The notes beneath the pieces were generated by a model. The model was not told where the DNA came from, did no database searches, and worked only from the letters and a program-made list of their open reading frames with translations. From the IMG/VR virus record IMGVR_UViG_3300010413_000013, positions 1 through 64,000 of that record: a DNA stretch of 64,000 nt; one strand, written 5' to 3'. The stretch's first letter is position 1. Each line of letters begins with the position of its first letter. Positions 1 to 64,000 of the stretch are shown piece by piece. The translations under genes were made by a program, and so were the position numbers. Origin of the DNA: a virus.

Positions 1-541
1 GATCTGAAAGTTTTACATAAATAGAAGTATTTCCAGATGCCCCATAGCCATTACTATAACAATTTAATATCTCGAAGTAATTAGCCCCATCTTCTACTCT
101 AACATTATGATATACACCATTAAGCAAATAAAAACCATCAACAGTAATATAATCTTTTCCATCTATATGAATAAGTCCTTCCCAAAGACCTTCTGTAATA
201 TAAGCACTGTCCAACCTTGGCATATATGAATCACCGGAGTATGCTTGAAAAGTGATTCTATTAACATCAGATGTACCACTATTCGCTGGTTTTAATTCAG
301 TAGAATAGTGATAAGAAGGACTATGTTCCTGCTCCATTCTAAAATTCACAACATCACCAGCAGAAGCATTTGCATTTGCTGCGGATACAGAACAACAAGA
401 AGTACCGGAAAGAGGAGAAGCACTTTGACAATTACTCCAACTTGCAGTACCAGTAGGAGAAATCCAATAGGTCCCTGCAAATGCAGTACCAGTAAGCAGT
501 AGGAGAGAAGAGATTAAGCCTAATATTAATTTTTTTACCAT
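1..541 (-). CDS. Exported beta-helix-type protein, C-terminus beyond window
   Basis: The frame is open from an ATG at 541 to base 1, so only the first 180 residues are visible. Residues 1-23 form a signal peptide (MVKK, a leucine-rich core, then an AFA cleavage site). After it, YWISPTGTASW and SAGDVVNF resemble the first coils of right-handed parallel beta-helix (pectate-lyase-like or tailspike) proteins, and VLNG/ILNCYSNG-like repeats follow around residues 135-170. The start overlaps the end of the LamG-like gene by 7 bases. Polysaccharide binding or depolymerisation is an inference from the fold; no catalytic residues can be assigned. It is the last visible gene of the exported-protein run downstream of the portal. 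Confidence 0.75.
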   Translation of the reverse strand, partial: MVKKLILGLISSLLLLTGTAFAGTYWISPTGTASWSNCQSASPLSGTSCCSVSAANANASAGDVVNFRMEQEHSPSYHYSTELKPANSGTSDVNRITFQAYSGDSYMPRLDSAYITEGLWEGLIHIDGKDYITVDGFYLLNGVYHNVRVEDGANYFEILNCYSNGYGASGNTSIYVKLSD

Positions 542-1230
542 GATGGAGGAGCCTCCGTCCCCTCATAAATTTTAAAGGAGTCATAATAAAGTACATCACT
601 TCCGGGGGAATACCATGTTCCAATATTCAAATTACTTGCATTTGTAGGAACAATAGTTGCAGATGTTGTACTATAATCCCAAGCATCAAAGGTAGAAGTA
701 GTAATACAAATTTGCACTGTCTCCGAGCCACCAGTAGTATAAATAAGATGCACGAAAACGTGATACCAAGTATCATCAACTATTTCTACTCCAGAACTCC
801 AAGTAGTAGTTCCATCTATAAGTTCATATATATCTGTGGGATCATTTATTTTACCGTCTATATAATTAGTACCACCACTATCTTTAATTCTGAAAACATC
901 AGTATCCCCAGTGAGAGTATCAGTGTAAATCCAATAATCAAACCATACTTCGGTGTAATCGGAGATATCCTTTACCATAAACCTAGCAGTAGCACTACAC
1001 TCCATAGAAACAGAACCAACTGCAACAATAGATCCTTCACTTACAGGAGATCCATAAAAAGAATCCCAATTACCAGCATTCGATGTTGGACTCCAAGGAG
1101 ATTCAAAACCATCTCCATCACTGAAAATAACAGAAGAATCTACTACTTCCCCCCTCCTTATCATAATAGTAGAAAAAGCCGTAGATACAGTAAGGAAAAG
1201 TATAAATAATGCGAAGAGTAATCTTTTCAT
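535..1230 (-). CDS. Exported LamG/concanavalin-like protein
   Basis: This encodes 231 residues. I start at the ATG at 1230 because it opens a clear signal peptide (MKRLLFALFILFLTVSTAFS) and overlaps the upstream TAA as TAATG; the frame runs 18 codons further upstream without such features. The rest looks like a jelly-roll lectin domain of the LamG/concanavalin A-like type: YTEVWFDYWIYTD, then DDTWYHVFVHLIYTT, and near the end VLYYDSFKIYEG. Such domains bind glycans and are common in phage fibres, but a cleavable signal peptide is not usual there. It is translationally coupled to genes on both sides. The fold assignment is by pattern only. Confidence 0.7.
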   Translation of the reverse strand: MKRLLFALFILFLTVSTAFSTIMIRRGEVVDSSVIFSDGDGFESPWSPTSNAGNWDSFYGSPVSEGSIVAVGSVSMECSATARFMVKDISDYTEVWFDYWIYTDTLTGDTDVFRIKDSGGTNYIDGKINDPTDIYELIDGTTTWSSGVEIVDDTWYHVFVHLIYTTGGSETVQICITTSTFDAWDYSTTSATIVPTNASNLNIGTWYSPGSDVLYYDSFKIYEGTEAPPSW

Positions 1231-2462
1231 TATTGTACCTCTAATGTCCAGCAAATGCTTACCCATGTAGGAGTACCGGAACACGTTCCTATATTTAAAT
1301 CCAATTCCTCTCCAGCAGCTAAAGTATCATCCCCACCCATAGATGTATCAAGTACTTCACTTGAAGTAGCAGTAATTTCCGAACCATTAACCGGAGACCC
1401 ATTTATAGAAAAATCAAAAGGAACAGTTTGATCTGTTTCTGCCCAAATTGCAGTAATAGTTTGTGTAACACTCCCCATATTTCTCCAGACAGAAAGAAAA
1501 TCTTCATCTGATACTGGATCTTCTATATAGATGCATTGGGAGAGGTTCGCAGCAGCAGCAGTATCAACATCTCCACCAGTAATGGTTAAAACACCAGCAG
1601 CACTGATCGTCCCATCTCCACTCATTGCCTTGGATTCATACCTATCATCAGTAGTATTATCATAAATAAGAATCATTCCATCTGTAGCAGGGGTATCATT
1701 ATCTTCTATAGCTACAGAATCCATAACCTTTTGTGCAGGAAGTGCCGCAAGCCATTTTGCTCCATTATAGATAAATAAAATTATATCACCAACAGTAGCA
1801 GTATAGTCTATTCCATACTGACCATAAATATCACTACCATCAAAATTTATAGTAACGGCATGATCGCATTCTAATTCAAACCAATCACCATTGGAAAATT
1901 CTGATTGGTCATCCCCAACACCATCATCAAAATCTGTAATAGTTACTACTCCTCCTGTTGCCCAATAATGGTGTATTTCACTCCCACCATCAGAAACATC
2001 TGGAGTAGCATCAGCAGCACTAAATGTACTTTGTGATATATCAGAAGTAAATCTTTCTGTCTCTGTTCCACCTCCACCAGCTTCAACCTCAGACCAAGAA
2101 GGATTTGCTCCTGCTCCATTTGTTTCCAAGTAGTATCCATTAGTACCGGGAGCAAGTTCTGCCCAATCTGTACCATCAAAATATAAAACTGTACCTTGTG
2201 CTACAGAAGACATATCTGCAATATCTTGTAAGTATGGATCTTGCGCTTGTACATTTGTTCCTATTGCTAAACCTAAATTACTTCTTGCATTGGAAGCAGT
2301 AGTAGCATTTGTTCCTCCCAAATCCACATCTATAGCACCATTACTATCATCATCTAATTCTACTGCTGTAGTTCCAGCAGCAGTGTCCATTAGACTATGA
2401 GTAGCACAACCACTGAATACCATAAGAAGTAGAACTAGAAGTATAGATAAATATTTATACAT
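1230..2462 (-). CDS. Tail-fibre-like protein with lipoprotein signal
   Basis: This encodes 410 residues. The N-terminus (MYKYLSILLVLLLMVFSGC) is a lipoprotein-type signal with a lipobox-like FSGC, so Cys19 could be lipidated. Residues 45-125 carry patterns seen in phage tail fibres: NATTASNARSNLGLAIGTN, DPYLQDIADMSS, LYFDGTDW and GYYLETNGAGANPSW. The C-terminal part (about 330-410) looks like a small beta-sandwich. It has its own start after a 17-base gap and ends in a TAATG overlap with the LamG-like gene. It may be a fibre module displayed on the cell surface rather than on the virion. That role is inferred; the signal and the fibre motifs are seen. Confidence 0.7.
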   Translation of the reverse strand: MYKYLSILLVLLLMVFSGCATHSLMDTAAGTTAVELDDDSNGAIDVDLGGTNATTASNARSNLGLAIGTNVQAQDPYLQDIADMSSVAQGTVLYFDGTDWAELAPGTNGYYLETNGAGANPSWSEVEAGGGGTETERFTSDISQSTFSAADATPDVSDGGSEIHHYWATGGVVTITDFDDGVGDDQSEFSNGDWFELECDHAVTINFDGSDIYGQYGIDYTATVGDIILFIYNGAKWLAALPAQKVMDSVAIEDNDTPATDGMILIYDNTTDDRYESKAMSGDGTISAAGVLTITGGDVDTAAAANLSQCIYIEDPVSDEDFLSVWRNMGSVTQTITAIWAETDQTVPFDFSINGSPVNGSEITATSSEVLDTSMGGDDTLAAGEELDLNIGTCSGTPTWVSICWTLEVQ

Positions 2463-2479
2463 AAATTATAAAGTCTCCT

Positions 2480-2950
2480 CTACATCATAGTAAAATAGAC
2501 AAAATCACCATCTTTCGCTTTTTTAGAATAGGAGGGAATAATTATCTTATCCGATTGTGGATCTATCAAAATTATTCCCTCCTTCGTTCTACATATATTT
2601 AAAGCATGTGAACCATTATTAAATAGTAGATGTTTAAAGTTCAATCCCATAGCAAAGCCCAATGCCCAAGTATATTTGTACTTATCAGGAACAGTAATAG
2701 ACATATTGTAATAAAGTTCTGCTTCTATTACTAATGCCTTTTTAATATTTGCCCACAGAAACAATGCATAGTTTTCACATTCATTAGTAGTATTTCTATA
2801 ATGCATATCAGCTACAGAATGCTGCTGTACCATATGTGCTACTTCTACTGTTAAAGGAATATAATACTCCTTCTGCCCAAACCACGTTGACTTCAATCTA
2901 GGCCATTTCTTCTTCAAATCTTTACTAAGGTTCGTATAGCTTAAAATCAC
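2480..2950 (-). CDS. Putative transglutaminase-like cysteine peptidase
   Basis: This encodes 156 residues with no signal peptide. A Cys in NECENYALFLWANI, a His in NNGSHALNI and an Asp in IILIDPQSD occur in the order and spacing of the papain-like/transglutaminase-like Cys-His-Asp triad. Aromatic-rich segments lie between them. The function is unknown. Cell-wall peptide cleavage or processing of neighbouring surface proteins would fit the fold, but neither is shown. It sits between two exported-protein genes downstream of the portal. The family call is tentative. Confidence 0.5.
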   Translation of the reverse strand: MILSYTNLSKDLKKKWPRLKSTWFGQKEYYIPLTVEVAHMVQQHSVADMHYRNTTNECENYALFLWANIKKALVIEAELYYNMSITVPDKYKYTWALGFAMGLNFKHLLFNNGSHALNICRTKEGIILIDPQSDKIIIPSYSKKAKDGDFVYFTMM

Positions 2951-3016
2951 GATATAACCTCTGTAAATAATCGTCTAAATATTTTCTATACCATCCCTTT
3001 TCTTTCCCTGCTGGAT

Positions 3017-3436
3017 TTATTGGCTCAGTGTGAAATTCATAGGTGCAGTCGGAGGGTTTTCATTAAAGCATACTGCTACCTCCGTACTATAACCACTTTC
3101 TAGCCCACAATCATCAAAAGCAGTGAGGACAAAATAAGTTTTTTCGTTTTCTACTCCATTATAGGCAGTAAATACATATAGTGGATTTACTGGATCTGCT
3201 AACTTATCTAATGTAATATCCATATCAGAAGCATTATTGCCCACCTGTACATACGGACCCCCTGCCGTAGTAGAAGAGTAAAGCCGATAACCCATAAGAT
3301 TTGCTTCTGTATTAGCATCCCAAGCAAATGTCAACTCTCCTGCATCTGCTCTCTGAATACCAGCACCTACTGTTAGGGAAAGACTAAACACTACTGCCAG
3401 TACTAAAATTAATGCTATACCTATTTTTTTAATCAT
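3017..3436 (-). CDS. Exported fibronectin type III protein
   Basis: This encodes 139 residues. The start at 3436 is chosen because AAAGGAG lies 8 bases upstream and the ATG opens a signal peptide (MIKKIGIALILVLAVVFSLS to about ADA). It overlaps the portal end by 8 bases. Residues 38-125 fit one fibronectin type III sandwich: LTFAWDANTEANLMGYRLYSS, then YVFTAYNGVENEKTYFVLTAFD and SGYSTEVAV. The C-terminus is proline-rich (NENPPTAPMNF). FN3 domains in phages usually mediate weak surface adhesion. Export would put it on or outside the host cell, which is unusual for a gene directly after a portal. Confidence 0.75.
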   Translation of the reverse strand: MIKKIGIALILVLAVVFSLSLTVGAGIQRADAGELTFAWDANTEANLMGYRLYSSTTAGGPYVQVGNNASDMDITLDKLADPVNPLYVFTAYNGVENEKTYFVLTAFDDCGLESGYSTEVAVCFNENPPTAPMNFTLSQ

Positions 3437-4970
3437 TGTCTTTTTCTCCTTTGTTATTATTACTATTATCATTGTTATTACCACCATCACTGATTTTCTT
3501 CTTCATTAGTTCCCTTTGTAATTCTTTATCTTCCTCTATCTCTTCGTTTTCCTCCTCTACCTTCTCATAATATTCCTTACTCATTTCCTCTGCTTCTTTC
3601 TTAGTATATCCAAAAAATCTCATTAAAAACTCTACCAATGGCATTACTAGTTCTATGCCCGGTGTCATAGCATACTGTGCTATTGCCTTAGTAGCTAATT
3701 CAGCATTCTTTACTATAGATTCTTCTCCGGGGGTTTCAAACTCGGGCCATTCTAATATATATTCTTCTTCTTTAGGTGAAGGAAGTATTTCTAATTCAAT
3801 GAGTCTATCGAAGAAGGGTCTTATAATTATTGGTTCTATGTGGTCTTCCCTTCTACTTTCCATTCGTTCATTCCAGTTATTTTTATCTTGACTACTTGCC
3901 AATTCCCCCCTTTCACTACCCATCAAAATTCTCTTTGGTATATTCTTAGCTGCTGCTATCAAGTCTATTTGTGCTTCTAGGAACTTAGTAGGATCTAGTG
4001 CCTGTACTTTCAAATCCTTTACCTCTAATCCTTGTAGCTTTATAAATCTTCTTAGTTCATGTTCATATTCATCTAGTTCATCTGCTAATGCTGCTTTAGC
4101 AGCATCATCAAAAGTATAGTCTTCTTGTGCTGATAGAACATATCCCGGTCTAGCTCCTTTCCAAAACATTTCAGCAGATCCAGCAGAAATAGTTTCTAGA
4201 TCTTGAAGTCTATTATAGACTACTTCTAAAGAAGGAATACCGTAAACATCTGATTCTAATGCTTCTGGTACTATATGAATTACTCTTGAATAATGAACAG
4301 GGATTCCTCTTTGGGAAGAAACACCATCCCCCATAGAGGTAGTAAGCTTGTAGATAACAGGAAGGGAATATCTTTCATTCTTGGGATCTGTTTCCCATTT
4401 TGTTATTTCGGTAGATCCTTCAGAGAAGACAGATAAGTAGACTAACTTTAAGTTGCTGTTTTTCTTAACAGGCTTTGATAAATCTCCTCCATCATTGAAT
4501 CCAAGTAGAACTATTGAGAATCTACCTAAACAGGATAATGTATCTGCTCGTTTAAGATAAGAGTAGACTTTTTGCTCTTTTACTATTGTTTCTACTTCAT
4601 CTTCAAATACAGATTCTTCATCTTCTTCTGAATCCTGTATTTTAGGCTTTTTACGCCAACTAGAATTTATTGGCCTGTCTACTATAGCTTTTGATAGATC
4701 ATGCCTATCATATCTAGCTTTGTAGTCTTTGAAATCTAAGTAGAGGGGATAACCGCAAATAGTATATAAATTACGATCACCAGAGAAAGATTTACCTAGG
4801 TAGGAGAAGAGTTTAGACCTAGAAGTAATAGCAGAACTTAGTCTATTTACTAAGTCCTTTATAACACCTTTGTTTTTATTGATTGCTTCTAAGTGCTGTT
4901 TTTCTGGTACTGCTCTATCACCATTCGATAGCATATATAGTTTATCGGGTTTTTGACTACTACTTGGCAT
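3429..4970 (-). CDS. Portal protein, DUF1073 type
   Basis: This encodes 513 residues. The portal forms the ring at the capsid vertex through which DNA is packaged and ejected. The sequence matches the DUF1073 family (also called Acb1-like N-terminal): YKARYDRHDLSKAIVDRPI near the N-terminus, CLGRFSIVLLGFNDG, HYSRVIHIVPEAL, YGIPSLEVVYNRL, and KNIPKRILMGSERGELASSQD around residues 350-370. The tail (residues 460-513) is a charged coiled coil ending in an Asn/Asp/Lys-rich stretch. The start has GGGAGG upstream. It has its own strong promoter with a palindromic operator, so it can be expressed apart from the terminase genes. MuF, the usual next gene, appears only at the other end of the window. 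Confidence 0.92.
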   Translation of the reverse strand: MPSSSQKPDKLYMLSNGDRAVPEKQHLEAINKNKGVIKDLVNRLSSAITSRSKLFSYLGKSFSGDRNLYTICGYPLYLDFKDYKARYDRHDLSKAIVDRPINSSWRKKPKIQDSEEDEESVFEDEVETIVKEQKVYSYLKRADTLSCLGRFSIVLLGFNDGGDLSKPVKKNSNLKLVYLSVFSEGSTEITKWETDPKNERYSLPVIYKLTTSMGDGVSSQRGIPVHYSRVIHIVPEALESDVYGIPSLEVVYNRLQDLETISAGSAEMFWKGARPGYVLSAQEDYTFDDAAKAALADELDEYEHELRRFIKLQGLEVKDLKVQALDPTKFLEAQIDLIAAAKNIPKRILMGSERGELASSQDKNNWNERMESRREDHIEPIIIRPFFDRLIELEILPSPKEEEYILEWPEFETPGEESIVKNAELATKAIAQYAMTPGIELVMPLVEFLMRFFGYTKKEAEEMSKEYYEKVEEENEEIEEDKELQRELMKKKISDGGNNNDNSNNNKGEKDND

Positions 4971-42915: not shown

Positions 42916-43077
42916 TTATTTAAGCTTGTTTAGTAATGTATCCGTTTTATCACTTTCTGCTTTAATTGCTTCTATTACTTCTGCTTCTGATTTACCACTA
43001 ATCTGCTGGAGAAGTAAAATACCTAACAGCACTAGATCGGATGCTGTATTAATCATTTTTAATTTTTCATTATCCAT
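42916..43077 (-). CDS. Small helical protein, last gene of the late unit
   Basis: This encodes 53 residues with GGAGGTGAACG before the ATG and an 8-base overlap with the lipoprotein gene. It has a hydrophobic stretch (TASDLVLLGILLLQQISG) followed by an acidic helix (EAEVIEAIKAESDKTDTL). It may be part of the lysis block. Confidence 0.6.
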   Translation of the reverse strand: MDNEKLKMINTASDLVLLGILLLQQISGKSEAEVIEAIKAESDKTDTLLNKLK

Positions 43078-43405
43078 CGTTCACCTCCATCAGTATTTCT
43101 ATAATAGCATTTTTAATCTTGATCCAAGTCATAAGATCATTACCAAAATCATAATCTTCTCCTAACATTACTTCCCAACCATCCAACAAAGCATCTGCAC
43201 TAGTGAATAGTTCCTTTGCTTTTATGTGTGTTTCCATTGGTATCTGATCTTGTACTATTAAATACTGCTCAATGAGTAGATTAAGTTCTGTTCTAGCTGC
43301 TAGATATTTCTTATCAGAAGTATTTAAAGCTGTTGTAGCACAACCTATCCCAAATAGTAGGAGGGCTGCTATAATAGCACTCTTATAAATCCAATTTCTT
43401 TTCAT
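43070..43405 (-). CDS. Small lipoprotein, possible outer spanin
   Basis: This encodes 111 residues. The N-terminus (MKRNWIYKSAIIAALLLFGI, then GCATT) is a lipoprotein-type signal with Cys at 22, although the lipobox is not perfect. The mature part is helical. With the membrane coiled-coil protein two genes upstream it could form a two-component spanin, which fuses inner and outer membranes at lysis. The proteins are not nested as many spanins are. A different envelope role is possible. Confidence 0.55.
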   Translation of the reverse strand: MKRNWIYKSAIIAALLLFGIGCATTALNTSDKKYLAARTELNLLIEQYLIVQDQIPMETHIKAKELFTSADALLDGWEVMLGEDYDFGNDLMTWIKIKNAIIEILMEVNDG

Positions 43406-43415
43406 AGTTTCCCTC

Positions 43416-43622
43416 CTACATAGTAATTTTCTTACTAGCTGTTACTCTTCCAATAATGGTTAAAACTACTCCAACAGCACCACCGATAGCAGTAGCAATA
43501 TCTGCTAGGGTAATCTGGTCGTCTGCATTTAGAGTATATCCAAAACCAGAAAGAATAAGAGCTACCAACATAAAAATAGATCCCCAAATAGTTTTACTTG
43601 CATACCATTTTTTTGTATCCAT
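43416..43622 (-). CDS. Holin
   Basis: This encodes 68 residues. KKWYASKTIWGSIFMLVALI begins a first membrane helix, and DIATAIGGAVGVVLTIIGRV is the second, followed by a basic end. The WYxSKTIWG start is typical of small phage holins found beside M15 endolysins. It would form the pores that release the endolysin. Start and stop are spaced 3-10 bases from its neighbours. Confidence 0.75.
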   Translation of the reverse strand: MDTKKWYASKTIWGSIFMLVALILSGFGYTLNADDQITLADIATAIGGAVGVVLTIIGRVTASKKITM

Positions 43623-43625
43623 GAT

Positions 43626-43964
43626 TTAATCTCCTTTTTCTTTTTTGTCTTTGATAAGTACTTTAAGCATTCCTTCTATGTTTGCTGTTTTTTCTCTCAT
43701 ATCAGCTACATCGTCTTTAATATCTTTTATATCGCCTTTCATTTCTTCTACACAATTATCTACATCTTGTTTTCTTTGGTGTATTGTTTCTTCGTTTTTT
43801 TGTACATCCTTCTTTAGTAGTTTTACTTGTTCATCAGCATCTACTGCTTTATTAAATACAAAAGCTGCCATAAATCCTAAAACAGTAAGCAAAGATCCCA
43901 AAGCTAGCTTTCTTATGAGAGGACCATAACCATTTACTACTTGTTTTATTCTGTTTTTTACCAC
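43626..43964 (-). CDS. Membrane-anchored coiled-coil protein, possible inner spanin
   Basis: This encodes 112 residues. A transmembrane helix (LALGSLLTVLGFMAAFVF, about residues 20-37) is followed by a long charged coiled coil (EQVKLLKKDVQKNEETIHQR and MKGDIKDIKDDVADMREKTA). This is the plan of inner spanins, but also of some tail or holin-associated proteins. Position between endolysin and holin supports a lysis role. Confidence 0.6.
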   Translation of the reverse strand: MVKNRIKQVVNGYGPLIRKLALGSLLTVLGFMAAFVFNKAVDADEQVKLLKKDVQKNEETIHQRKQDVDNCVEEMKGDIKDIKDDVADMREKTANIEGMLKVLIKDKKEKGD

Positions 43965-44865: not shown

Positions 44866-47800
44866 TTATGCTGCTTTTAATAATTCTATCTCCTCTCTTA
44901 GTTCTTTTATTTCATCGTGTAATTCCTGTACATATTTCACTGTATAGGCTATCTCTACTCCACTGTTTGTACAATATTCTGATTTTCCGTTTGGGTGTAT
45001 TACTTCTCTTACTGCTTTATCTAATCCAACCTTCAACCATTCTTGTGCTGTTATACTTGCTATCACTTTATCAGGTAGTAGATCCATTGTATGATATTTA
45101 GGAGTTATACTTCTCATTTTGTCTTTAATAGAATCTTGCATAGGTATAATATTTGCTTTTCTTCTTTCATCAGAGGTATCCCAATCTTGATAGACATAAG
45201 TATAACCATCTCCTCTTACATACATTAATCCCGATTCACTTGAATTTTCTACTATAAGTGGATAATATGAAGAAGTAGCTCCTCTTGCTGTCGCTCTAAG
45301 AGTAACATAATCATTATCACTACCTCCCCCGAAAACACAATTAAGAGCATAAACTCTATCCCAAGGATAACTACTAGTTCCTAAATATACAGCATCATCA
45401 CTGTCTGGATAAATACCACCATAACTACCACTTGGAGTATAGAAAAAATAAATATCCAAATCATTATCATGTAGAGCAACTAAAAACTGCGAAGTACTAC
45501 CGGTCCAAGGATGTAAATATAAAAGAGAAGAGGTAGTAATTTCATCACTATAAAATGCCTGTATATAAAACTCTGCATTTAAATATGAAAACATATTTAA
45601 AGCACTATCAGTATTTGGATCATTCCAAACTATAACTGCTGGATCTGAAGCATCAGCAAGCATGGTAATGTCGCTTCCTGCTGTTAATGCCAAAGAAGAA
45701 ACACCGTTTGATCCAATAGAAAGATATTCACTATTACCAATTTTAAAATATAAATTACCATCACCATCTATTAAACAATGTGCATAACTTTCATTTCCTA
45801 TTGTTACTTCTTCTGTGGTTAAATCCAGATTGAAGTATAAAATTGCAGCAGTAGTATATCCTTGAATACCATTATTATTAATAATCATTCCACCGGGATC
45901 TGTATCAGAATCTTGTCCAGAAGGATCTGCACTTGTTTTAATTACTCCACTAGTATAAACTTGTATCTCACACTCTTTAACATATCCATGAAAAATAGTA
46001 GCAGTACTTCCATCAATGGGAATATCCAGTGTAATACCATACAAATGATGTATCATTCTGATACCCATTGTTGGATCTAGTAAAATGTAATCCTGCCCAC
46101 TACCCACTCTAAGGATACCGGGAAGTACTGCTGGAATACTACCAGAAGAAACGGTAGATTGACTACCAACTATCAAAGGTTGCCAAACTACCATTGTTCC
46201 ATTTTGAGAAAGAGTAAGTCCTTGTGGTGCTAGATCTTCAAAATTATCTAAAGTCCATTTATAAATAGTAGCTTCTATCTTTAAAGAACAATCTTTATTT
46301 ACTTCTATACTATCTATTAATGCTTCGTATAAACCACCATACTTGGTATCATTGATAGTAACAAGTTCACCGGGTAGTAATCCTGTTCTATGTGGACCTA
46401 ATACAAAGGTTATTTCTGCTTTTCTACCATACTTCCACTGATAGTAGAGCATCCCTAGCTTTTGAGCATTTACTGAATCATTAACAAAAGGAACTTCAAA
46501 CAGATCACCAGAATATTCATTTGTATTTATTTTAGCAGGAACAGTAAATCTAGTTAGCTGATCTATTGGTTCATCTGTTTGTTGATAGGCAATGTCTCCA
46601 CAATCATAAAAAACATCCTTGGTAAATAAAGAGTAGTCAAAAGTAGTATGCTTTTGTTCATTGCATTTTATATCTGCATCTGTTAAAGTAGCTTGTGAAG
46701 TAGTATCTAATACTCTTAGTGTTATGTGTCCTTGGCAATAATCAAAAGCACAATGACATTGTGAAAGAAGATTTGCTATTAATTCTTTTCTATCTATTCT
46801 CTTCCAGAAACCGTGATTCCATTCTAGATTCCATGCAGAACTATCAAATGTAGTAGCAGCATCAGAGAAATCTAATAGATGTCTAGGAATACCCATATCT
46901 ACTAAGATATACTCTAATACATCAGCAGGATTTGTTATAGATACAGTATCACTTCGACTAAACTTTACTAGTGCATCTTCTAACCAAGCACCATCACCTT
47001 TCCATAAACCATTAGTAACAGGAGAAGCAGGAGGACTACTACTATCGCCAGTGGTAGGAACAAATTGGAAACATCTATAAGTTCCACCAGTATTCCCTGT
47101 TTCCGTAGTTTGATTAAATTCATATGTACCATTTTCCCATACTGAGTTTCCATACTTCCTAGGTGCTCTTACTTTGGTAACAGTATAGGTGGGACCAGAA
47201 GGACCGAGTAGATATCTTCTATCATTGCTGACAAAAACAGCACGAAGTGGAATATAAGCAGTACCAAATACTACTGGTACTATAGCACCATCATCTCTAT
47301 TACCGTAGTCATTATCTTCTTCTGGAAATTCATTGGAAGTCAAAGGACTATTAGGCCACGTTCCTTTTAAGAACTTGTAAATATAATCTACACAATCAAA
47401 TTTTAAAGTTTCTTCTACTGTCTGTGGAGTTACTTTTGCAGTAAGTAGAAATTCATAGAAGACATCTTCATTTGTTCCATCACTTAGGACTTGCCGAATC
47501 ATTACTTTACAAGCATCAAAGTCTTCTGGAGTTAGAGCATTATTTGGATTTACTACTGTAAAAGTACATCTAGAAGGTGCTTGTAAATCAAACTCACTCT
47601 TTGCTCTAGTCATTTTTGAGAAGTTAAAATCTTTAATCTTGGCAGTATAATTATGCCCATCATAAGCACAATTAGTAGTACTCCATCTATAAGTAGGTGT
47701 AGCAGGATATCCAGAGGAGTCATCTGTCATAATCGCACCACCACCCACACCAAAGGTAACATCTGAATCACCTTGAAAAGCTACAGCTTGCCCACCAGCA

Positions 47801-47886
47801 TATAAAGTAAATTCAAAAAGCCACTTTACTTCTAGATTTGGTTCAGTTAAAATAACTTCCTGTATGGAATCTAAATCAATAGTCAT
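44866..47886 (-). CDS. Tail hub/receptor-binding protein with S74 chaperone
   Basis: This encodes 1006 residues. The N-terminal half (about 1-560) looks like a baseplate hub/Tal-type protein (FNFSKMTRAKSEFDLQAPSR, ELIANLLSQCHCAFDYCQGH, EVNKDCSLKIEATIYKWTLD). The middle is beta-rich fibre. The C-terminus is an intramolecular chaperone of the S74/endosialidase type: YPWDRVYALNCVFGG, SDERRKANIIPM, and a terminal coiled coil ELHDEIKELREEIELLKAA. The conserved Ser-Asp in SDERRK is where self-cleavage occurs in this family. The hub and the fibre tip in one protein suggest a compact tail tip. Confidence 0.78.
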   Translation of the reverse strand: MTIDLDSIQEVILTEPNLEVKWLFEFTLYAGGQAVAFQGDSDVTFGVGGGAIMTDDSSGYPATPTYRWSTTNCAYDGHNYTAKIKDFNFSKMTRAKSEFDLQAPSRCTFTVVNPNNALTPEDFDACKVMIRQVLSDGTNEDVFYEFLLTAKVTPQTVEETLKFDCVDYIYKFLKGTWPNSPLTSNEFPEEDNDYGNRDDGAIVPVVFGTAYIPLRAVFVSNDRRYLLGPSGPTYTVTKVRAPRKYGNSVWENGTYEFNQTTETGNTGGTYRCFQFVPTTGDSSSPPASPVTNGLWKGDGAWLEDALVKFSRSDTVSITNPADVLEYILVDMGIPRHLLDFSDAATTFDSSAWNLEWNHGFWKRIDRKELIANLLSQCHCAFDYCQGHITLRVLDTTSQATLTDADIKCNEQKHTTFDYSLFTKDVFYDCGDIAYQQTDEPIDQLTRFTVPAKINTNEYSGDLFEVPFVNDSVNAQKLGMLYYQWKYGRKAEITFVLGPHRTGLLPGELVTINDTKYGGLYEALIDSIEVNKDCSLKIEATIYKWTLDNFEDLAPQGLTLSQNGTMVVWQPLIVGSQSTVSSGSIPAVLPGILRVGSGQDYILLDPTMGIRMIHHLYGITLDIPIDGSTATIFHGYVKECEIQVYTSGVIKTSADPSGQDSDTDPGGMIINNNGIQGYTTAAILYFNLDLTTEEVTIGNESYAHCLIDGDGNLYFKIGNSEYLSIGSNGVSSLALTAGSDITMLADASDPAVIVWNDPNTDSALNMFSYLNAEFYIQAFYSDEITTSSLLYLHPWTGSTSQFLVALHDNDLDIYFFYTPSGSYGGIYPDSDDAVYLGTSSYPWDRVYALNCVFGGGSDNDYVTLRATARGATSSYYPLIVENSSESGLMYVRGDGYTYVYQDWDTSDERRKANIIPMQDSIKDKMRSITPKYHTMDLLPDKVIASITAQEWLKVGLDKAVREVIHPNGKSEYCTNSGVEIAYTVKYVQELHDEIKELREEIELLKAA

Positions 47887-55130: not shown

Positions 55131-55489
55131 TTTATCACCTCAAAGGAACAAGTCTTCTTTCCTGTTTGTGCTAATATACCAGAAGTATCTAGTAGTAATA
55201 CTTGCTGCCCATACATAGTACCCTCCAAACCTTTCCACGTTTGCCCACTATAGGTAGCTTGTGCATCTCCTATCTTCTCTGATACTGCTTCCCTTGCCAA
55301 TGGAGTACATGATACTAGATGTGCTGCATACCATCTAGCAATATTCTTCAATCTTTCGGCAGCATGTATTCCAGTTAGTTTCTCTGTTACTATTGAATTT
55401 GCTACTTCACAAAATGGATCTAATTGTGCAGAAGTCAAATCTGTATCCATTATCTCCAATACATCAGCACCAGTTACATAATTTGTCAT
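55127..55489 (-). CDS. Head-tail connector protein
   Basis: This encodes 120 residues. TGADVLEIMDTDLTSAQLDP and ANSIVTEKLTG, then IARWYAAHLVSCT are helical features of gp6/gp15-like adaptor proteins that sit under the portal. It ends in a short beta part. It follows the sulfotransferase gene by a 4-base overlap, so the glycan cassette is inserted directly before the connector block. Confidence 0.75.
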   Translation of the reverse strand: MTNYVTGADVLEIMDTDLTSAQLDPFCEVANSIVTEKLTGIHAAERLKNIARWYAAHLVSCTPLAREAVSEKIGDAQATYSGQTWKGLEGTMYGQQVLLLDTSGILAQTGKKTCSFEVIN

Positions 55490-56190
55490 TTTACTCCTCC
55501 TTCTTCTTTATAATGCCAGAGTTTAGGAGATACAAAATCTTCTATTTCTTCTTTGTGGTATTCCAAGTCTAAATGTTTTATCATTTCTTCTGTTCCAGTA
55601 AAGTCACCATTGATAGCTTTAAATGGCCAATACTCTATTAGATCTATACTTAACATCTTCATTTCTGCAAATCTCTTCTTGTGTTCATTTATCCAAACCA
55701 TCCAACCATTTCTTTTATTGAATGCTCTCATAAAAGAAGTCTTTAAACAAGAAGAACAAATATCATAGTCATCTCTTCTAACCAAAACCCATTTTGCTTC
55801 TGGAAACATTCTAACCCATATAGGATAGATCAAACAAAGCTTTGCTCCTTTAAAGAACCACACCGATTTACCATCATACCCTTGTCTATATAAAATATCC
55901 ATTACTTCTTTCTTGTGTCTATTACATATCTCCATACTACCATTTGCATCCCAAGTAACTCTATCAATAGGAGGTAATGGATTCTGCCCCATTGGATCTA
56001 CTGCTATACTTTTTAAATATGGTTTAATTACTTTATTTCGGATAGCAGTATTTTCATATTGTCCTTTCTGATTATTGGGAGTGCTACCAACTACTTCTCC
56101 TCCCCATGCTCCGCATCTACTTATTATCCCTGCGGTAAGAGAAGTTCCACTTCTAGCACATCCAGTTATTAGTATAGGTTTATCTTTCAT
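55486..56190 (-). CDS. Sulfotransferase-like protein in the late operon
   Basis: This encodes 234 residues. ILITGCARSGTSLTAGIISR is the PAPS-binding loop and WVLVRRDDYDICSSCLKTSF the 3'-phosphate binding segment of the sulfotransferase fold, with about 110 residues between them as expected. The acceptor is probably a glycan, in line with the four glycan-type genes before it. It joins them by TAATG and the connector gene by ATGA, so it is part of the late message. Not closely similar to the one at 12.1 kb outside the binding motifs. Confidence 0.72.
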   Translation of the reverse strand: MKDKPILITGCARSGTSLTAGIISRCGAWGGEVVGSTPNNQKGQYENTAIRNKVIKPYLKSIAVDPMGQNPLPPIDRVTWDANGSMEICNRHKKEVMDILYRQGYDGKSVWFFKGAKLCLIYPIWVRMFPEAKWVLVRRDDYDICSSCLKTSFMRAFNKRNGWMVWINEHKKRFAEMKMLSIDLIEYWPFKAINGDFTGTEEMIKHLDLEYHKEEIEDFVSPKLWHYKEEGGVK

Positions 56191-56921
56191 TAGAAGTCAC
56201 CATTCCATTCTTTTCTAAATACTGCTGGATTCCCTGCATAAACGCCCGGTTCATCTATATTCTTAACTACTACAGATCCCATACCTATAAATACTTTACT
56301 ACAGATATGAATACCATTTCTAATAGTAGAATTTAATCCTATAAAACAATCATTTCCTATTAATGCAGATCCACCTATTACTGTTCCATCAGTAATAATA
56401 TTTCTGTTTCCTATTCTTACATTATGTCCTATATGCACACCACAACCTATTTTAGTTTGACTTCCTATTACTGTATAATCCAAAGTAGCCCTAGCAATAG
56501 TAGAGTTTGCTCCTACTACTACTCCCTTTTTCAAAACAACACTTCCCATGTGTTTTAAACCCACTAATTCATTTTTACTGCTCTTTGGTTTATACACTGC
56601 ATATCGCATTCCTTCATTACCAATAGATGCTGTAGGATGGATATATTCTGCATCAATCATATCTGCTCTATGATCCTTGTCTCTATTTACTTCATTGTGA
56701 TAACGAATAAAATCTGCTATATAGTTTTCTCTAGGAAGTAGTAGACAAGCTTCTTCCTGTACCTCCTCCTTCCTAAGAGTTAATGGAATAAGAATTGCTA
56801 CTTCACAACAGTAGGCTTTTGCAATATTGATTTGTGCTTCAGTTTTAGCATAAGTCATAGCATAGTCTACTAACAAATTAACAGAACAGGTTCTATAGTA
56901 TTTCTTCATCAGATCTAACAT
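56190..56921 (-). CDS. LpxD-like hexapeptide acyltransferase
   Basis: This encodes 243 residues, start supported by AAGGAG. The first 90 residues are alpha/beta, then SIGNEGMRYA and a left-handed beta helix of hexapeptide repeats (VVVGANSTIARATLDYTVIG, TKIGCGVHIGHNVRIGNRNI) ending in EPGVYAGNPAVFRKEW. This is the architecture of N-acyl or N-acetyltransferases acting on amino sugars. A catalytic His is likely in GVHIGHN. The sugar and acyl donor are unknown. Confidence 0.78.
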   Translation of the reverse strand: MLDLMKKYYRTCSVNLLVDYAMTYAKTEAQINIAKAYCCEVAILIPLTLRKEEVQEEACLLLPRENYIADFIRYHNEVNRDKDHRADMIDAEYIHPTASIGNEGMRYAVYKPKSSKNELVGLKHMGSVVLKKGVVVGANSTIARATLDYTVIGSQTKIGCGVHIGHNVRIGNRNIITDGTVIGGSALIGNDCFIGLNSTIRNGIHICSKVFIGMGSVVVKNIDEPGVYAGNPAVFRKEWNGDF

Positions 56922-57630
56922 CTTCCTGCTCCTTTGCCATTATCTCAAAAGGATGTGGTGGTTCTTCTGTTTCTCTGTAGATCTTCTGTACCCAACCTAC
57001 TCCACATTCTTTAATTCTAGGTTTACCATGAAACAGTATTACTCTAGCATCTTTTGGTTTTCTTCCAAACTTGCAATGATGTTTAAAACTATAGTACCCA
57101 TCAAAAACACTTTGTACTGTTTTTATTTTAAATCGTCTTTCTTCTAGTTTATTATAAGTATATCTCTGCTCCATCTTATATTTAAAATCTTCTTCTTTAA
57201 ACATCTTGAATAACCAAGTCCAATTACCATTCCAAATCTGTAAACCAGAACAAAACTTCTCTCCTCTATTCTTTGCTAGTGCTTGTGGTTCAGCCATATA
57301 GAAAACATCTTCTGGACAAGTTAAAGCAATCTCTCCCAATCTATCTATATTATCTACTACCAACATATCAAGACCAGAAGCAATTGTTGGTCCCTTTGTT
57401 CGGAACATTTCTATCATGCTCCACCAGCCGGGAAGATTTTTCTGTAATTTAATTGTTTCCATGTATGGGTAGTCAATTTCTAAATCAGTATAACAAATAA
57501 ATCTATGTGGTATTAATAAATGCTTCTTCACTTGTCTACAAAGTGTAATAGCATCAAACTCTTCAAAATCTCCACCAGATTTAAGTGTTACTACAAAGTT
57601 TACTATTTGTTTTTCAGCTAGATTTGCCAT
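56893..57630 (-). CDS. Glycosyltransferase-like protein
   Basis: This encodes 245 residues. PHRFICYTDLEIDY, then LPGWWSMIEMFRTKG and IASGLDMLVVDNIDRLGEI follow the pattern of small GT-A transferases in which the donor site acid-x-x-x-V-D follows a WWSKxxxF helix. A late CGVGWVQKIYRE is also typical. It overlaps both acyltransferase genes. The sugar is unknown. Confidence 0.7.
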   Translation of the reverse strand: MANLAEKQIVNFVVTLKSGGDFEEFDAITLCRQVKKHLLIPHRFICYTDLEIDYPYMETIKLQKNLPGWWSMIEMFRTKGPTIASGLDMLVVDNIDRLGEIALTCPEDVFYMAEPQALAKNRGEKFCSGLQIWNGNWTWLFKMFKEEDFKYKMEQRYTYNKLEERRFKIKTVQSVFDGYYSFKHHCKFGRKPKDARVILFHGKPRIKECGVGWVQKIYRETEEPPHPFEIMAKEQEDVRSDEEIL

Positions 57631-58153
57631 TTTTGTCTAACCTTTCGTTTGATGGAATTTCTTCCATAAATTTAGCTGGATTACCAACATATACTCCATA
57701 GTCATTACACTTGCCTACTACTACTGCTCCTGCTCCTATAAATGTTTCTCTGCCAACAACACATCCCGGTAGTAGTAAAGCACCCATTCCAATTCTTGCT
57801 CCATACATTACTGTAGGAGGAGTAGGATTAAATGGTGCGGTTTCTCTTCTCAAATGTACCATTCGTTTATCATTACCAGAAACTACCATCTGTCCTATAA
57901 ATACTTTATCTCCTATATTCATTCCCTTTGTTATGTTGCATTGTGCTTGAATGAAACAATCTTCTCCTATTGTCAACCATCCTTCTATTACTGTATTATG
58001 CCCTATCTTCGTTCTCTTCCCTACTATTGTTTCTGGTCTAAGTACACAATTATGACCTATAAAAACACCATCCCCAATAATACAACCATCCTCTATTACT
58101 GTATTATGTCCTATTACTACATTCATTCCTATCTTTACATTTTTACCTATCAT
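57614..58153 (-). CDS. Hexapeptide-repeat N-acetyltransferase
   Basis: This encodes 179 residues. Almost the whole chain is a left-handed beta helix (MIGKNVKIGMNVVIGHNTVI, CIIGDGVFIGHNCVLRPETI, TKIGHNTVIEGWLTIG) with the end GVYVGNPAKFMEEI. It resembles WbpD/WlbB-like enzymes that N-acetylate amino sugars of surface polysaccharides. Its start overlaps the preceding stop by 4 bases. Confidence 0.8.
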   Translation of the reverse strand: MIGKNVKIGMNVVIGHNTVIEDGCIIGDGVFIGHNCVLRPETIVGKRTKIGHNTVIEGWLTIGEDCFIQAQCNITKGMNIGDKVFIGQMVVSGNDKRMVHLRRETAPFNPTPPTVMYGARIGMGALLLPGCVVGRETFIGAGAVVVGKCNDYGVYVGNPAKFMEEIPSNERLDKNGKSS

Positions 58154-58788
58154 AACGTATCTTCCAATCTAACCCTAGGAACTATTAATGGATCTATTGC
58201 TGTTTCTTCTGAAGCATTTACAATCTCTACTTTCAATGCTTTCAAATCTTCTACTATTGTATGCATACATGGTAAATATCTACTTTTATATGCGTGTGGA
58301 ACAGGAGGACTTTTATGATAGTTATGCCAGTTAAAAGTTACTACTCCTTTATGATCTTTCTTCCCCTGCATATCAAAACCTAGTAGTACTATCTTCTTTG
58401 CTCCAAAGTGGTAGGCAACATTTATTGCTGACATTCCACTATTCCCATTCCATGATATAAAACCCGGTTTTGTTTCTACTCCTTTTGGTTTCCCCCTCTT
58501 CCATATCTTTACTACATATAAATGATATAGACGTTGGCAAGAAGTCATCCGTAATCCGGGATATTTTAAAAACTCTTCTCTATTCCATCCCCACCATTTA
58601 CAATCTCCAAAGTAACAAGCATCTACCCAAGTACCAAGTTTAAATGCATCATTTACACCTAATACTCTTCTATCATGTATTAGGTGTAGTGGAGATTGTT
58701 TTAAGCTAGGTCCACCACCTATTACATAGACTGTTTCTCCCTCCCATATTTTAGGAGGGAGAAATCTCCTTTTCTTATCGACATTCAT
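58150..58788 (-). CDS. DUF115/MptE-like protein, possible glycosyltransferase
   Basis: This encodes 212 residues. VYVIGGGPSLKQSPLHLI is the nucleotide-binding start of DUF115-type proteins, followed by VLGVNDAFKLGTWVDACYFG and FGAKKIVLLGFDMQGKKDHK. Such proteins include phage and bacterial glycosyltransferases of flagellin or glycans as well as pterin kinases. Context with acetyltransferases supports a sugar role. It is the first gene of the glycan cassette and overlaps the head gene before it by one base. Confidence 0.65.
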   Translation of the reverse strand: MNVDKKRRFLPPKIWEGETVYVIGGGPSLKQSPLHLIHDRRVLGVNDAFKLGTWVDACYFGDCKWWGWNREEFLKYPGLRMTSCQRLYHLYVVKIWKRGKPKGVETKPGFISWNGNSGMSAINVAYHFGAKKIVLLGFDMQGKKDHKGVVTFNWHNYHKSPPVPHAYKSRYLPCMHTIVEDLKALKVEIVNASEETAIDPLIVPRVRLEDTL

Positions 58789-62644: not shown

Positions 62645-64000
62645 TTACATCCCCTTCCAAAATAAGTCATTTATAGGTACTTGTTTATTTCCACCTAATA
62701 CTATAAACTCTCTTTCAGACATAAACTTATTCTTCCACCAAAGCTCATGTGGTAGTACTACATCTTTGGTACTCATTTCTATCCTAGCTGTAACCCCACC
62801 AGCGTTTTTTCCAAACCCATCTGCTATTGACACTTCATCTGTATATCCAGACAAAGCATTTTCTCTAATTGGAACCAAACCATAGCCTTCTTTTTGTGCT
62901 TCTAAACACCTTGCTTTAAAGGCTGGTCCTGTTTTACTTCCGTCAGTTCCACGATATAGAGTAATTTTCTTTTGTCCTACTGCTCTATAATATTCTTGGG
63001 TAGCTGCTCTCACTCTTATATACTCGTCTATTACTCTGTCTTCCATACCACTTGCCAAATATTTCTTTACTTCTTTCTCTATAGACTCACTGGATACAAA
63101 AGCTTTTATTTCTCTGTTCTCTACTTTTGCTGCTACAAACTTTAAAGAAGCAGGATACGAACCTTGTGTAGACCCTTGCCAAATAGAAAGGAGGTTCATC
63201 ACATTGGGGCATTCTTCGCTTATCTTCTTTCTGATAACACTCTGCATTGATCCTTCTGTCTTATCTTCTAATCCTTCAATAAACTTTCTGTACTCCTTCC
63301 TGTAAAGCTTGTATACATTCTCGTATTCCCCTCTCAGTGTTCCTACTTCTTCCGCTTCATACTTTTTACCTATCGGATACCTTTTAATCTTTACTGGTTC
63401 TTTCTTCTTTTTAGCATAGTCTAATTTTGCTTTAGCTTTTTCTATAGCCTTTTTCTTTATAGCTATCTGCTTCTCCAGTGCTGCTAATGCTTGTTGTTTA
63501 GCAAGCAGTTCTTGTTTAACCTTTACTGCTTTTATGGCTTTTACTCCTAATGCTTTTTCCCTCTTAGCAGCAGCTTTAGTATTGCTGCCATGAATACTTT
63601 TCATATAAGGTAGTAAAGCACATCTGCAATTTGGTTCACCTATTAACTCTTCTGCTTCTTGCCTAGTATATATTCTACCATGCCTTTCTATATGTGTATC
63701 TCTAACCCTTTCATCTAGTGCTGTCCACCACTGTACTAATATTTCTTCATTTACTATAGGTTCAAAATTCTCGTATTCGGTTAATGCTCCTAAATTATGT
63801 GTTCTTACTATTTCAGTTCGAGTAATCAATCTTGCTCTATTGATTGCTCTCATATTCTTTCCACCTACTGTTACCATACCAGTTTTATCTTTGTCAATAG
63901 TATCCAACATATTCCTAGCAATTTGATATGGTCCCTTACCTTCTGCTAGTCCTAATGATAGTACTCTACTTATCTGCCGATCCATTACTTCTGTAATGCC
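62645..64000 (-). CDS. MuF-like head protein fused to an ADP-ribosyltransferase-like domain, N-terminus beyond window
   Basis: The frame is open to base 64000; 451 codons are visible, with an internal Met at 63985. The MuF part shows GLAEGKGPYQIARNMLDTI, INRARLITRTEIVRTHN, and WWTALDERVRDTHIERHGR with a later PNCRCALLPY. A long lysine/alanine coiled coil links to the C-terminal 110 residues, where KITLYRGTDG, ENALSGYTDEVSIADGFGKN and a final SEREFIVLGG fit the R-S-ExE pattern of arginine-type ADP-ribosyltransferases. MuF proteins sit inside the head, so the domain could enter the host with the DNA. Confidence 0.8.
   Translation of the reverse strand, partial: GITEVMDRQISRVLSLGLAEGKGPYQIARNMLDTIDKDKTGMVTVGGKNMRAINRARLITRTEIVRTHNLGALTEYENFEPIVNEEILVQWWTALDERVRDTHIERHGRIYTRQEAEELIGEPNCRCALLPYMKSIHGSNTKAAAKREKALGVKAIKAVKVKQELLAKQQALAALEKQIAIKKKAIEKAKAKLDYAKKKKEPVKIKRYPIGKKYEAEEVGTLRGEYENVYKLYRKEYRKFIEGLEDKTEGSMQSVIRKKISEECPNVMNLLSIWQGSTQGSYPASLKFVAAKVENREIKAFVSSESIEKEVKKYLASGMEDRVIDEYIRVRAATQEYYRAVGQKKITLYRGTDGSKTGPAFKARCLEAQKEGYGLVPIRENALSGYTDEVSIADGFGKNAGGVTARIEMSTKDVVLPHELWWKNKFMSEREFIVLGGNKQVPINDLFWKGM

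Follow-up and report, generated by a model that had tools for sequence, protein, structure and literature searches.

What would a tailed phage gain from export signals on a run of fibre-like proteins encoded among the genes that build its particle? The question was raised by one end of the 64,000-nt stretch of DNA analyzed here (the window), which covered positions 1 to 64,000, most but not all, of the 76,009-bp IMG/VR record IMGVR_UViG_3300010413_000013. The first and last 144 bp of the record were identical, forming a 144-bp direct terminal repeat. This suggested a genome of about 75,865 bp that is circular (or terminally repeated). Its genes for portal, MuF, capsid, tape measure, major tail protein and lysis marked the phage as a siphophage.

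Five open reading frames, all on the minus strand, were found downstream of the minus-strand portal gene (phrog_146; 3429..4970), where the original prediction had placed them. Counting away from the portal, they coded for a 139-aa FN3-like protein (3017..3436), a 156-aa possible papain/transglutaminase-like cysteine peptidase (2480..2950), a 410-aa lipoprotein with a tail-fibre shaft segment (1230..2462), a 231-aa LamG/ConA-like protein (535..1230) and the N-terminal part of a right-handed beta-helix protein (2..541). The last gene was cut by the window edge; it continues past the record ends as far as record position 74475 and codes for 643 aa in total. The portal gene overlapped the FN3-like gene, and the LamG-like gene overlapped both the lipoprotein and the beta-helix genes. 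Terminator-like sites on the minus strand between the portal and beta-helix genes were neither listed nor obvious. From the single strand, the overlaps and the absence of obvious terminators, co-expression of the cluster with the structural genes is expected.

Signals were predicted with our own signal-peptide heuristic, which recovered 10/10 known secreted or lipoproteins of E. coli, rejected 3/3 cytosolic proteins and passed 1.0% of shuffled N-termini. The FN3-like protein began with an SPI signal (codons at about 3341-3436) with predicted cleavage between MIKKIGIALILVLAVVFSLSLTVGAGIQRADA and GE. In the 410-aa lipoprotein an SPII signal (about 2409-2462) with a lipobox was predicted to be cleaved between MYKYLSILLVLLLMVFSG and CATHS, FSGC being residues 16-19 and the lipobox Cys19 lying at 2406-2408; residues 5-34 were also touched by an NCBIfam lipoprotein model, below the cut-off (E 0.0026). 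The SPI signal of the LamG-like protein (about 1171-1230) ended by eye between MKRLLFALFILFLTVSTAFS and T, and the heuristic placed the cleavage two residues earlier. That of the beta-helix protein, from 541 downwards to 476, was predicted to be cleaved between MVKKLILGLISSLLLLTGTAFA and GT. The peptidase-like protein had no signal.

Signals were thus predicted in 4/5 genes of the cluster vs 2/99 other genes (Fisher p = 1.6e-5, with related genes treated as independent). This upheld the claim, made originally, of a cluster of four N-terminal export signals, three of them SPI and the fibre-like one SPII. Both signal-bearing genes outside the cluster belonged to the lysis cassette. They coded for a 111-aa lipoprotein, a possible outer spanin (43070..43405, minus strand), and a holin-like protein (43416-43622). 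An Rz-like spanin gene (43626-43964) adjoined the lysis lipoprotein gene, and this pair suggested that the host is probably diderm. Portal relatives came from Bacteroidota, Firmicutes, Chloroflexota, archaea and others, too wide a spread to assign a host.

A ribosome-binding site preceded the signal-bearing start of the FN3-like, LamG-like and beta-helix genes, and AGAGGAG stood upstream of that of the lipoprotein gene at a long spacing. Internal starts in the four genes lacked such a site, except for a weak TTG at residue 35 of the FN3-like gene. This pattern indicated that the signal-coding starts are likely the true ones. Judged from the sequence, export of the four proteins is highly likely.

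Residues 35-132 of the lipoprotein matched tail-fibre proteins of Rhizobium, Sulfitobacter, Pelagibacter and Puniceispirillum phages, with 62.5% identity over 56 aa to the tail fibre of Rhizobium phage RHph_N3_19, and the protein matched the tail fiber family phrog_24210 (E 6.7e-7). As far as its sequence tells, the likeness is to a shaft/linker motif and does not include a receptor-binding tip. No N-terminal virion-attachment or adaptor domain was detected by Pfam or PHROG, residues 1-34 consisting of the signal and a short linker. Relatives were not found for the rest of the protein beyond residues 35-132, including its C-terminal part, and a pattern for the C-terminal domain, which we take to be widespread in phages, gave zero matches.

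The original prediction had read these proteins as adhesion modules displayed on the infected cell. Clustered signals, the 62.5% fibre segment and the diderm-type lysis genes spoke for display; as to adhesion, the segment was shaft/linker, and the proposed BLAST comparison of the cluster proteins with the fibre/receptor-binding-like protein at 44866-47886 (44.9-47.9 kb) showed no similarity.

The fold names given to the other proteins held to different degrees. The beta-helix protein matched Pfam Beta_helix over the cut-off, but the match of the LamG-like protein to Laminin_G_3 (E 0.002) was below it, and the FN3-like protein had a weak Fn3-like match in the PDB (E 0.017) and none to Pfam fn3. 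Single-sequence structure models were unreadable (mean pLDDT 39.6 for the lipoprotein and 38.1 for the LamG-like protein). For the fifth gene, said to be cysteine-peptidase-like, Cys (NECENYA), His (GSHALN) and Asp (LIDPQ) motifs were seen by eye, but no significant match appeared in Pfam, PHROGs, NCBIfam or PDB; from its motifs, a cysteine peptidase is plausible. Agglutinin_C was searched for in this gene and was absent. PADLOC returned zero matches.

Known relatives of the cluster proteins in the databases were distant, with a close homologue for none of the four exported proteins. No close relative of the lipoprotein or of the peptidase-like or beta-helix protein turned up in IMG/VR, in a search from which records near this genome may be excluded, and in INPHARED none was found for the LamG-like, FN3-like, peptidase-like and beta-helix proteins. 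The FN3-like protein had a relative with its own signal peptide in an unrelated phage, L070 (41% identity), where its gene neighbors were probable tRNA genes and further genes with signals; no structural gene was recognized nearby. Recurrence of this gene with its signal outside structural genes suggested an accessory exported protein and not a virion part. Near the L070 relative, four consecutive signal-bearing or lipoprotein genes were also seen (L070:2810-4131).

The location of the cluster was itself unusual. It opened an island between portal and MuF, bounded on the far side by the MuF head gene, of which the window held the C-terminal part (62645..64000, minus strand; gene to record position 64501). 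The gap between portal and MuF was 14,792 bp here; in 37 relatives it was at most 4,421 bp (median 212 bp). MuF directly follows portal in >60% of cases (PMC5576092). The order portal, MuF, protease and capsid was that of the module of SPP1 gp6-gp7 type, but in the latter MuF normally comes directly after portal (PMC5576092) and here 14.8 kb lay between. Other large proteins encoded in the island lacked signals. One, of 1009 aa, matched LamG and, weakly, CBM5/12; two paralogues of 833 and 799 aa, encoded at L004:2785-7685 (record 64784-69684), were made up of repeats of about 22 residues (66-nt period).

In the relatives, signals were predicted in 10/114 genes of the portal-protease interval vs 15/464 outside (p = 0.017, duplicates removed, related genes treated as independent). 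Six lineages had signal-bearing genes there, coding for different, unrelated proteins. This suggested that the slot takes up exported cargo repeatedly and does not house a conserved gene set. In one relative a papain-family peptidase with a signal was encoded directly after portal (L058:2206-3306).

We interpreted the cluster as envelope-targeted cargo in the late structural operon that likely hinders re-adsorption or superinfection, and we put the probability of this reading at roughly 0.4. The presence of export signals on four genes amid the particle-building genes suggested that the phage probably alters the surface of its host cell during infection. The accessory island, in a siphophage of a diderm host, would have its four proteins made late, together with the virion proteins. 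The beta-rich FN3-, LamG- and beta-helix-like proteins would be exported through Sec and then cleaved by signal peptidase I. The lipoprotein built on the tail-fibre shaft segment would be lipidated and go probably to the outer membrane, having Ala at +2; this sorting rule is an enterobacterial one. The envelope of the infected cell would be where all four act, either within it or at its surface, although a lipoprotein of the outer membrane may point inwards, to the periplasm, and not be exposed on the cell. The likeliest benefit would be that surface sites are occupied or masked, so that re-adsorption of progeny or superinfecting phages are hindered, as with small phage lipoproteins. The assignment of this function is tentative.

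Receptor-blocking phage lipoproteins exist (PMC9586334, PMC12685063), and some exclusion lipoproteins are encoded inside structural gene clusters (PMC11893012). Among possible functions of phage lipoproteins in the envelope, exclusion has the best precedent (PMC9586334, PMC12685063, PMC11893012). T5 Llp, Cor and Rtp45 are, like the window lipoprotein, phage-encoded, lipobox-bearing and of diderm hosts, and the SPII signal with lipobox was shared. They are, however, small and adjoin a receptor-binding gene (PMC9586334, PMC12685063). Against the size of about 10 kDa or less in the Llp/Cor family, the window lipoprotein had 410 aa, was fibre-like and was co-encoded with three SPI proteins. Its gene lay near the portal gene, about 29 kb around the circle from the receptor-binding gene, which counts against exclusion. 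From its size and position, it was not placed in the Llp/Cor family. The genes of the mEpimmI exclusion lipoproteins lie inside the structural cluster as here (PMC11893012); the part of that report available mentions no fibre-like segment, and exclusion was demonstrated by experiment there and is a prediction here.

A different role in the envelope is conceivable, if rather unlikely: the beta-helix and LamG-like proteins may bind or cut host polysaccharide (capsule or exopolysaccharide), while cells may be stuck to one another or to surfaces by the lipoprotein and the FN3-like protein, which would aid phage release or spread and not exclude other phages. Beta-helix and LamG folds are frequent in polysaccharide lyases and lectins, and the LamG and weak CBM5/12 matches of the 1009-aa island protein point the same way, but none of the four proteins matched a catalytic family.

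The four proteins may instead be virion fibres or decoration proteins whose Sec signal takes them to the periplasm during infection, for attachment to particles when the cell lyses or afterwards, or they may serve in both places. Their genes lay among structural genes, alongside signal-less fibre-like proteins, and the shaft/linker motifs of virion tail fibres were found in the lipoprotein. On the other hand, its lack of a detected virion adaptor and its lipid anchor, which would keep it in the membrane, argue against this. The particles of tailed phages, moreover, are assembled in the cytoplasm. We consider this explanation unlikely. The sequence does not discriminate among exclusion, polysaccharide-directed and virion roles.

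In other phages, signals on fibre-like proteins were infrequent but came up repeatedly, which bears on the virion explanation as well. Among the matches listed from IMG/VR contigs, 201 complete proteins carried either of two fibre motifs, and 10 of them were flagged with a signal. One of these, L281, looked like a site-specific recombinase and was discarded as a false match, leaving about 9/201 plausible cases among the matches listed (L138, L147, L189, L218, L220, L230, L263, L268 and L297). After gene calling and de-duplication, signals were commoner in the motif proteins listed, 7/170 vs 9/825 other large phage proteins, a modest and heuristic-based enrichment in which related genes were treated as independent (p = 0.011). 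The idea that signals are unique to the portal-MuF locus was dropped, since signal-bearing fibres were found in other phages.

In L263:970-2772 the signal directly preceded a tail-fibre adaptor domain (phrog_1640, E 6e-16). A strong ribosome-binding site stood upstream of the signal, and a later start before the adaptor was found only inside the signal. This suggested that a virion role for signal-bearing fibre proteins is possible. The earlier statement that virion fibres normally lack signals therefore stood as a rule, but not without exception. A neighboring L263 gene (1-201) also combined a signal with fibre-like sequence. In L220 a signal preceded a collar-type fibre, of which homologues in three phage records had no signal; the L220 start was less certain than that of L263.

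Like the window lipoprotein, the signal-bearing IMG/VR proteins combined a Sec signal with fibre motifs, several in structural neighborhoods. They differed in being called SPI and not SPII, and the window lipoprotein had no counterpart of the virion adaptor that L263 retains or of the collar-type domain of L220. The tail fibres with GGTxATxAxxARxNLGLAIGTNVQ (Rhizobium phage RHph_N3_19, Puniceispirillum phage HMO-2011 and Sulfitobacter phages) shared its shaft/linker at 45-62% identity and had no signal in six phage records, whereas in the window lipoprotein the segment came closely behind the lipobox. It is a doubtful proposal that some tailed phages export true tail fibres, or proteins derived from fibres, through Sec, to coat the infected cell with adhesion modules of their own or to be mounted on particles at lysis. 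The window lipoprotein would then be a lipid-anchored version and L263 the clearest case. The literature searched, which left most subscription journals outside, did not describe Sec signals on tail fibres.

It is improbable that the cluster consists of surface genes taken from a host, which through lysogenic conversion benefit the infected cell or lysogen and not the phage cycle. Its location is accessory, and exported FN3 and beta-helix proteins are frequent in bacteria; its composition was phage-like, however (36.8% GC vs 35.5% in late genes), it overlapped the portal gene tightly, and an integrase was not found among the genes tested in a non-exhaustive search. That the hydrophobic N-termini are chance or degenerate signals without function is very improbable even with calls from a home-made heuristic, given the textbook n-, h- and c-regions in four of five neighbors, their clustering and the 1% of shuffles that pass.

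Phage proteins acting in the envelope of infected cells have so far been known mainly as small single lipoproteins. On the favored reading, that of envelope-targeted cargo, four exported beta-rich proteins encoded together at a variable site in the head operon would widen the picture to larger, multi-protein sets, one member being built from a tail-fibre segment with a lipobox, and that site would be a place to seek more. The rare signal-bearing fibres raise the testable question of whether fibres can travel through Sec, at odds with the usual picture of cytoplasmic assembly.

Two further features were observed among the structural genes. The C-terminal domain of the MuF head protein (record 62645-64501) matched a DRAT ADP-ribosyltransferase (E 1.2e-6), a fusion of MuF with an effector such as PMC5576092 describes. 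In the head-tail module, at 55486-58788 of the window, some genes resembled by eye those of a sulfotransferase (CARSGTS), a hexapeptide acyltransferase and a GGGPSLK protein, and part of them were conserved in relatives.
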